64,000 nt of DNA, from assembly GCA_030156945.1 (NCBI GenBank), contig JASGLT010000006.1, forward strand, positions 38,723 through 102,722, read 5' to 3'. The position numbers and the translations under genes are program-made. Positions within the stretch are counted from its first letter, which is position 1. Each line of letters begins with the position of its first letter. Of this stretch, positions 3,837 to 16,412 are shown piece by piece. Source of the DNA: Thermococcaceae archaeon (GTDB taxonomy: Archaea; Methanobacteriota_B; Thermococci; Thermococcales; Thermococcaceae). The notes under the pieces were generated by a model. It was not told the origin of the DNA. It made no database searches and was given only the letters and a program-made list of their open reading frames with translations.

Positions 3837-4097
3837 TCAGGCCTTGGAGGCCGTAATACGCTTTGCGACCTTTCCGGCCGGAGTGGTCGGCAGATAAGCA
3901 CCGCCGGCAAAGGTTGCACCGCATTTTTGGCACTGCCATATGCCAGTGCTTATCCTTTTAACGGCCTTTCTGCCGCAGACAGGACAGACGTGCTTCTGCC
4001 TCATTCTCTCCTCTACTGCTGCCACCCTTCTCCTGATCTTGAGACCGTATCTTGGACCAAACCTTCCAGCTGAACCAACCTTGGTAGTCCTTCCCAT
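3837..4097 (-). CDS. rpl37A: 50S ribosomal protein L37Ae
   Basis: 86 aa [25 protein letters not shown]...[33 protein letters not shown]. Confidence 0.95.
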
Positions 4098-4197
4098 GAG
4101 CATCACCCCAACTTGAGCATTTTTCACGACTGGTGGGTTTTTTCAGGGACGTTTTATAAACCTTTGCCCACCCAAGCTTCTGGAGAAGTCTCCCAAG

Positions 4198-4825
4198 GAA
4201 ACTTTGTCCCGCAAAGTTTCATCAAAGTTTGTGGTTCTTGTTCACGAGGTCCTTTTTGAGGGATTTTCCCTTTTTGAATGCCGTCCTGGATTGTGAATTC
4301 CATTTTATTCGCTTGCTCTTTGTGAGTTTGCTTTTTAATGACGCCCGAAGGGCGTAAAGGGAAGAAAAACTCCTTCCAGTTAAGAGATTTTAGGAATTAA
4401 CTCACTTTTTAGCTCGAGTACATGAAAAATCCCCGTAGAAGGGCAATTTCAGAAGGAATCACGAATTTTGATCAAACTCAATGGGACTGTCATCCCGTGC
4501 GTTGAAGCTCCGCTTCAACGTCGCGCAGGAAGCTTTTAGAAAAAGATTCACCAAAAGCCCGTAGCTCCTCTTAGAAAGGCTATATACGGGGATTTTTACA
4601 CGATAAGTGCCTGTTCCAGGAGGAGAACAACTCAGATAAGAATCCTCAAAAAGGTTTGCATTCTCCTTGAAGCCCGAAGGGCGTCGATTTTTGAGTTAAA
4701 CCACCCCAAGGGAGCATTTTAAGAGTTCTCACTCTTAAAACAACCCTTCAAAAAGAAAATCACGTGAAAGCTGGCTTTTCAGAAAGAGCTACACTCTTTG
4801 ATGAAACTTTGCCCACCAAAGTTTC
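4198..4825. repeat. Imperfect inverted duplication of a ~310-bp non-coding unit (about 4198-4507 vs 4513-4825)
   Basis: Paired blocks centred on ~4510: gaaactttg-N5-caaagtttcatcaaag at both outer ends (16 nt caaagtttcatcaaag shared in inverted orientation), gacgccc...gggc, aaaaatccccgta (4425-4437) vs tacggggattttt (4585-4597), central hairpin cgttgaagctccgcttcaacg (4500-4520); no convincing ORF. Confidence 0.75.
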
Positions 4826-4826
4826 T

Positions 4827-4903
<77 letters not shown>

Positions 4904-4950
4904 TCAGAAGTGTTATAAGGGGTTCAAAAATAAAGGTTGCGGTGGTAAAA

Positions 4951-5430
4951 ATGATGCTGCCGGACTGGAAAATCAGGAAGGAGATACTGATAGAGCCTTT
5001 CAGCGAGGAGTCCCTTCAGCCGGCTGGCTACGACCTTAGGGTTGGGAGGGAGGCCTACTTGGAAGGACGTGTTCTGGATGTTGAGAAAGAAGGTAAGCTG
5101 GTAATCCCCCCCAAGACACATGCTCTTGTGCTGACCATGGAAAGGGTGAGGCTTCCCGATGATGTTATGGGCGATATGAAGCTGAGAAGCTCCCTCGCCA
5201 GGGAGGGGCTCCTTGGTTCTTTTGCCTGGGTTGATCCTGGATGGGATGGCAATTTGACCCTTGCACTTTTCAATTCGTCTAATGAACCTATCGAGCTCTA
5301 TTACGGGGAGCGCTTTGTCCAGATAGCTTTCATACGGCTTGAAGGCCCCGCCAGAAATCCCTACAGAGGAAACTATCAGGGGAGCAGGGGGATAGTTCTT
5401 TCAAAAAGGAGACAGAGAAGGGGAGTTTGA
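4951..5430 (+). CDS. dcd: dCTP deaminase / dUTPase family
   Basis: MMLPDWKIRKEILIEPFSEESLQPAGYDLRVG...MKLRSSLAREGLL...VDPGWDGNLTLALFN; real start inside listed ORF. Confidence 0.92.
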   Translation: MMLPDWKIRKEILIEPFSEESLQPAGYDLRVGREAYLEGRVLDVEKEGKLVIPPKTHALVLTMERVRLPDDVMGDMKLRSSLAREGLLGSFAWVDPGWDGNLTLALFNSSNEPIELYYGERFVQIAFIRLEGPARNPYRGNYQGSRGIVLSKRRQRRGV

Positions 5431-16354: not shown

Positions 16355-16412
16355 GGCCGATGACGAGCGTTAGCCACGCTGACCGGTGAGGAAAAGAGGG
16401 TTAGCCGAGGCC
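16355..16412 (+). ncRNA. Candidate C/D box sRNA (2'-O-methylation guide)
   Basis: GGCC-g-ATGACGA(C)-gcgttagccacg(12 nt)-CTGA(D')-ccg-GTGAGGA(C')-aaagagggttag(12 nt)-CCGA(D)-GGCC; terminal GGCC/GGCC stem; TATA-like tttttaaaa about 25 nt upstream. Confidence 0.7.

Follow-up and report, generated by a model that had tools for sequence, protein, structure and literature searches.

Prokaryotic MITEs, for example SM3A and SMN1 of Sulfolobus, Correia and ERIC, are short, non-coding and palindromic repeats that are dispersed over intergenic sites and have no transposase of their own. REP/BIME and palindrome-associated (IS200/IS605-derived) elements are characterized by hairpin ends, clusters and structure at the DNA level, and in integron cassette arrays the units are joined by folded attC sites of variable sequence. 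In the Thermococcales, chromosomal inversions are so frequent that close genomes hardly align, and their endpoints lie at tRNA genes. For Thermococcus, tRNA genes were reported as inversion endpoints together with a tRNA-targeting integrase mechanism, that of pTN3, and a Leu-Thr tRNA endpoint pair (in the context of strain sp. 4557) was not recombined in vitro by the integrase (Cossu et al., 2017; PMC5495485). Repeated sequences of the order are also represented by the sRk48/sRk52 repeat RNAs, transcripts of about 130 nt with one copy in T. kodakarensis and more in Pyrococcus (Phok et al., 2011; PMC3124441).

The array analyzed here lies within a stretch of 64,000 nucleotides from a Thermococcaceae archaeon (the window, to which all positions refer), between the promoter of a presumed L37Ae gene and the 3' end of tRNA-Arg(TCG). 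A first-pass annotation had described an imperfect inverted duplication of about 630 bp at 4198-4825. Self-alignment of positions 4000-4999 recovered it over its whole length: 4193-4830 matched its own reverse complement in one alignment of 655 columns (58% identity, 115 bits, E 1.5e-29), a continuous anti-diagonal that goes beyond the short hairpins. The local score of arm against arm was 210 as compared to 123 ± 9.6 for dinucleotide shuffles, none of the 500 shuffles being as high, and a repetition of the test on the whole region gave 214 against 122 ± 9.5. Each arm is also palindromic on its own (self-palindrome scores of 82.5 and 88.0 versus about 57 ± 7 when shuffled; 0/300 as high), and for this reason the arms align in direct orientation too (score 170.5). 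The features of the locus are as follows, with the strand where the feature has one.

3837..4097, reverse strand: open reading frame with a zinc ribbon, which we take to be ribosomal protein L37Ae; left neighbour, reading away from the array
4150..4166, reverse strand: TATA-box region of the L37Ae promoter; the arrays of many relatives begin directly upstream (boundary after ..TTTATAAACCTTTGC)
4173..4196 (about): left edge of the array, a degenerate end hairpin of E4 type (CAAGCTTCTGGAGAAGTCTCCCAAGG), as compared with CAAGCTTTTAGAAAAAGCTTGACCAAGG in loci L021-L024
4198..4478: unit 1, an imperfect palindrome with an E1 end on the left and an E2 core (TTTTGATCAAACT) on the right; full-length nhmmer match on both strands and self-palindrome score above shuffles
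4198..4220: E1 end hairpin of unit 1, GAAACTTTG-TCCCG-CAAAGTTTC, followed by the ATCAAAG outer stem
4340..4355: central hairpin of unit 1 (GACGCCCGAAGGGCGT), from sequence and consensus structure
4479..4520: double-hairpin insert of 42 bp within the E2 end of unit 1, also found in L061, L052 and L250
4521..4529: leftover of the truncated E2 end (TCGCGCAGG), as compared with CAAACTTCGCGCAGGCGAAGTTTG ends
4530..4825: unit 2, an imperfect palindrome placed head to head with unit 1, with an E4 end hairpin (AAGCTTTTAGAAAAAGATTCACCAAAAG) on the left and an E1 end on the right; full-length nhmmer match on both strands (4529-4825) and palindrome score
4672..4682: central hairpin of unit 2 (GCCCGAAGGGC), from sequence and consensus structure
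4803..4825: E1 end hairpin of unit 2, 2 bases past the encoded CCA of the tRNA
4828..4903, reverse strand: tRNA-Arg(TCG) gene with encoded CCA and the array on its 3' side

The outer hairpins (GAAACTTTG-N5-CAAAGTTTC, at 4198-4220 and 4803-4825), the common 16-mer CAAAGTTTCATCAAAG, the GCCC/GGGC hairpins and the AAAAATCCCCGTA/TACGGGGATTTTT blocks listed in the first-pass annotation were all present as claimed, and the array is indeed AT-rich (42% GC versus 52% in the window). The perfect hairpin near 4510, to which a central position had been given, exists, but it is not the dyad of the element and belongs to the separate 42-bp insert at 4479-4520. Likewise, both units lie within the limits of 4198-4825 first proposed, but the array goes slightly further left, to the degenerate hairpin at about 4173-4196. 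The 42-bp insert is itself a repeat, smaller than the unit that encloses it; it occurs within E2-type ends elsewhere (L061, L052, L250) and is missing from some copies (compare L056 with L061 and L250 with L262). A coding function was rejected, as the array holds no plausible open reading frame, and a search against Rfam returned nothing at the array but tRNA-Arg; elsewhere in the window, a C/D box RNA, sR34, was recognized at 16356-16410 (RF01273, 75.6 bits). DNA similar to the L37Ae gene region was found in 59 of the 61 genomes of the genus, and an element ends at its TATA point in L124, L126-L132, L134, L136, L141-L143 and L145-L147, while no element was found at that point in L121, L122, L123 and L149.

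Consensus folding of units from tRNA-proximal positions revealed the same plan in four classes: an end hairpin, an outer stem, an inner GGGTTTA/TAAACCC stem, a central hairpin and another end hairpin. Where two units join inside an array, only one of the two end hairpins is complete, the other being trimmed to its core. Changes on both sides were found in 79 of 261 consensus pairs, compared to about 36 with slid partners, and 81-87% of the cells were Watson-Crick against 17-41% in the control, a measure that favours structure by construction. On the tRNA strand, G.T and A.C were equally frequent in strand-symmetric pairs (39:42) and slightly unequal in the union of pairs (315:252); an early excess of G.U (291 to 143) was rejected as biased, the structure having been predicted on one strand. 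Since RNA tolerates G.U but not A.C, the equality suggests that what is kept in these sequences is DNA pairing or a palindrome-restoring mutation process. In their hairpin ends, their clusters and their DNA-level structure, which is kept while the sequence has diverged, the arrays are similar to REP/BIME and IS200/IS605-derived elements; they differ in that their units are much longer and linked to tRNA genes, and in that the Y1 transposase is absent from many unit-rich genomes. A search for this transposase (PF01797) gave no match in G000, G001, G009, G021, G056 and other unit-rich genomes, and it was rejected as a partner because its distribution does not track the units.

When the array DNA was searched in the genomes of relatives, it proved to be a dispersed repeat of the genus Thermococcus, with copies across many contigs of its own genome. 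A region of 700 bp matched 25 of the 41 searched genomes, all of one genus and often with 10-37 matches each; at the level of the family, 67 of 94 genomes matched window DNA, whereas the nine genomes of genus g9 gave 0 matches. An iterated profile search over the fetched loci recovered both window arms as full-length members, in agreement with the initial suggestion of one non-autonomous repeat present twice, and units scored similarly against the profile on either strand, which is required of a palindrome. A full unit measures about 230-310 bp, arrays comprise one to four units, and dozens of copies occur in Thermococcus species. The other initial suggestion, a single long palindrome as the unit, did not hold: lone units occur, sites hold from 0 to 4 units, and single units are gained or lost. 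The E1 end, scanned over 84,980 species, was found in 55 stretches, all in records labelled Thermococcus, Thermococcaceae or Thermococci. The end motif AAGYTTSAYCAAA has 59 copies in the complete genome G011, and its reversed form none; 15-58 copies are usual in genomes of the genus, and many Thermococcus genomes contain 20-59 exact end motifs, whereas the reversed control was found 0-1 times in most. Three members of the genus (G003, G019 and G070) have no exact end motif and may represent losses. Several draft contigs end inside or beside units (C13, C32, C14, C5 and C2 of G000; C1-C3 of G014), and unit counts from draft genomes are therefore too low. Phage, plasmid and viral collections contained no similar DNA, and an origin from such elements was rejected.

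The MITE-like character proposed for the array is borne out by its anatomy and its link with a tRNA gene, but neither a target-site duplication nor a matching transposase was found. The units have the terminal inverted repeats and the short non-coding body of MITEs, and share with them the palindromic sequence, the dispersal over intergenic sites and the want of a transposase of their own. They differ in the exact placement at tRNA 3' ends, in chaining with one complete hairpin per junction, in showing no target-site duplication (at one clean site) and in having no parent transposon among the sequences found. In G011, pairs of end motifs bracket no gene-sized insert, and hence no matching transposase there. 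We count the family among the miniature palindromic repeats, a known kind, within which it stands out by its precise placement at tRNA 3' ends and by arrays built of hairpin-capped modules; in the open-licence literature searched, no description of the motif or of tRNA-linked palindromic Thermococcus arrays was found, which is weak evidence of novelty.

The proximity to a tRNA 3' end, first remarked at this single locus, is a rule across the genus. Arrays begin 2-10 nt past the encoded CCA of tRNA genes and almost never lie on the 5' side. In G011, 48 of the 59 end motifs are located within 1.3 kb 3' of a tRNA gene (random mean 1.3), as are 25 of 35 in G013 (random mean 0.8), and the tRNAs followed by units in G013 include one for Leu, one for Gly and two for Thr. 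Of the 20 clusters in G011, about 18 are at tRNA 3' ends or fragments, namely 15 intact tRNAs detected by covariance model, one intron-bearing tRNA detected by ARAGORN and two tRNA 3' fragments. These two fragments adjoin an integrase-like reading frame, to which they are fused directly beside unit arrays (L053, 4359-4900; L054, 4570-4700), and are probably ends of integrated elements. Over the fetched loci, a sample biased towards units, a unit edge lies 0-9 nt from the 3' end in 91 of 161 tRNAs, and no unit edge was found within 50 nt on the 5' side of any of them. About half of the tRNA units of G011 have no array, and in such cases a gene often starts close behind the tRNA (judged by eye). 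The ends E1 (GAAACTTTG..CAAAGTTTCATCAAAG), E2 (AAACTTCG..CGAAGTTTGATCAAGG) and E3 (CAGCCCTTTC..GAAAGCGCTGGCGG) directly follow the encoded CCA, each with a characteristic spacer, and E4 (GAAGCTTTT..AAAAGCTTCACCAAAAG) is mainly internal in arrays. A further module end, ACGAAAGACAAGGGGGCTCCGCCCCCTTATCTCTCTGTACTCTC, was observed in L092, L094, L113, L118, L269 (2732-3119) and L280 (2879-3264), behind tRNAs and at boundaries that also carry E1-E3 ends; several repeat families may thus share the tRNA 3' target.

Array-by-array comparison of three near relatives (G001, G012 and G014) revealed the gain and loss of whole units. An extra unit of 286 bp, present in G001 and G014 but absent in G012 (a gain or a loss), was found at the L37Ae locus, with both flanks unchanged; it occupies the place of the outer part of the E3 end hairpin in G012, and no target-site duplication was found at this one clean case (L236/L254 versus L274). 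At another promoter-side boundary, a different module end abuts one and the same base in each of the three genomes (L228, L248 and L269). Recent copies were also identified: L250 and L262 of G014 share 91% identity over 315 bp with sharp unit ends, and L269 and L280 of G012 share 95% over 388 bp, a copy that ends exactly at the tRNA end in one place and at the promoter in the other. Some copies take in the neighbouring tRNA (L273/L280). A derivative of a casposon or of another tRNA-targeted transposon would be expected to repeat the tRNA 3' end at the far side of its insert; at those unit junctions that were examined by eye, no tRNA 3' sequence was seen. Other shared units are mostly 93-99% identical and diverging in place, and turnover is therefore slow. 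As in integron arrays, units are joined by folded DNA sites of variable sequence and change at the edge beside unique DNA; the Thermococcus units, however, are symmetric and carry no cassette genes.

Whole tRNA cassettes have also been flipped. Both the tRNA-Ala/Val pair and tRNA-Arg(TCG) are inverted between unchanged neighbours, together with their unit or its remnant; tRNAs reversed relative to a conserved neighbour were seen in L234 versus L253/L273 (Ala-Val pair), L232 versus L272 (Arg-TCG) and L242 versus L264 (Trp). Among 30 genomes chosen for keeping the 5' neighbour of tRNA-Arg(TCG), clustering of the 3' neighbourhoods with units masked gave 13 clusters, or about ten arrangements when three clusters too short for a judgement are set aside, and in the largest synteny group (13 genomes) the unit content varied from 0 to 820 bp. 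Within the fetched loci of three genomes, 44 arrays have a flank that could be matched in a relative, and 17 of these lose the flank on the opposite side. After four contig-end cases were dropped by hand, synteny breaks were found at 13 of 40 arrays as compared to 4 of 72 flanking positions taken as controls (conservative count 12/40, p 0.001), at least one of the counted breaks (L237) possibly reflecting an insertion and not an inversion. If two arrays serve as the ends of an inversion, tail-to-tail tRNAs that share one array are expected, as well as arrays without a tRNA, and both occur (L056, L209, L295 and L300; L061 and L236). Arrays and the integrase sites of pTN3 both link tRNA genes with inversion endpoints, but the att sites of that integrase are inside the tRNA and the arrays are behind it; the Leu-Thr pair failed with the pTN3 integrase (PMC5495485), and the arrays of G013 sit behind Leu, Thr and Gly tRNAs.

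The main rival to an active copying of modules is their passive spread by homologous recombination or gene conversion from the shared T-arm and acceptor of tRNAs: the repair of a break, begun in one tRNA gene, would carry over the DNA that follows another, with template switching keeping the hairpin ends and the palindromy and no dedicated recombinase. We consider this reading improbable, but several observations agree with it: the tRNA-Val paralogues of G012 share tRNA and unit as one block of 392 bp (89%), the collapse of units between arms in L234 is typical of palindrome instability, paired changes without selection are also expected from template switching, the tRNA-including copy of L273/L280 could be ordinary conversion between tRNA paralogues, and neither the end-motif pairs of G011 nor the Y1 search revealed a dedicated enzyme. 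It accounts poorly for the 388-bp copy in L269, which ends sharply beside a promoter where there is no tRNA, for the G014 copy that is bounded by unit ends (L250/L262), and for a boundary to unique DNA that stays fixed while the adjoining module type changes (L228/L248/L269).

Two further explanations assign a function to the units themselves. That they are host elements, such as insulators acting in both directions, terminators or sites of chromosome folding behind strongly transcribed tRNAs, is less probable again; the exact spacing to the tRNA end, the symmetry, the occurrence in nearly all Thermococcus and the T-runs of at least 5 in the first 120 nt on the tRNA strand (40/84, versus 12/84 for A-runs) would agree with such a role, but about half of the tRNA units of G011 do without an array, one syntenic tRNA site ranges from 0 to 820 bp of array, and genus g9 lacks arrays altogether. 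T-runs within 60 nt were no commoner with units (5/17) than without (5/22), and with no excess of T-runs near tRNA ends in G011, the role of a tRNA terminator gains no support from them. Structural RNAs produced by extension of tRNA 3' ends would fit the consensus secondary structure with its covariation and the position directly behind the tRNA, and yet we regard them as highly improbable: on the strand of the tRNA, strand-symmetric pairs show G.T as often as A.C, the units match both strands alike and have no match in Rfam, and the parts consulted of a T. kodakarensis transcriptome paper (PMC4247193) name no such RNA. The doubt about a structural RNA already expressed in the first-pass annotation is thus supported by the missing G.U bias. 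The sRk48/sRk52 RNAs are likewise repeated, structured intergenic sequences of Thermococcales, but their distribution is opposite to that of the arrays, and identity with them was rejected on distribution and size.

The reading that we favour, with a probability of roughly 0.58, is that the locus is a two-unit array of Thermococcus-specific, non-autonomous palindromic DNA modules that are copied to the 3' boundaries of tRNA genes and serve as endpoints of inversions. Each module, of about 230-310 bp and capped by a hairpin of at least four kinds (E1-E4), would be copied or moved as a whole into a boundary fixed at 2-10 nt past the tRNA CCA, and modules would chain onto each other; copying of whole units is suggested by the sharp ends of the fresh copies. 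The pairing would be preserved as DNA, in a cruciform or a single-strand hairpin, and the folded end may be recognized by a recombinase supplied in trans or engaged in fold-back repair. Since about half of the tRNA transcription units are followed by similar arrays, these could serve as crossover points for inversions, a role to which the excess of synteny breaks points and which would give rise to tail-to-tail tRNA pairs with a common array, tRNA-less arrays and flipped tRNA cassettes. The missing target-site duplication and bracketed gene, the patchy Y1 transposase, the slow turnover and the tRNA-including copies count against this explanation. A more specific version, in which DNA-structure-guided recombination by a hypothetical enzyme adds and removes gene-less, hairpin-ended cassettes behind tRNAs without target duplication and causes the frequent inversions of the genus, is put forward tentatively and appears doubtful at present.

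If the favoured reading is true, the arrays, which follow about half of all tRNA transcription units, represent a direct and testable alternative substrate for inversion in a genetically tractable archaeon. The arrays would then be an archaeal counterpart of repeats that use the flanks of tRNA genes as a safe haven, and would show that long palindromes persist in a hyperthermophile.
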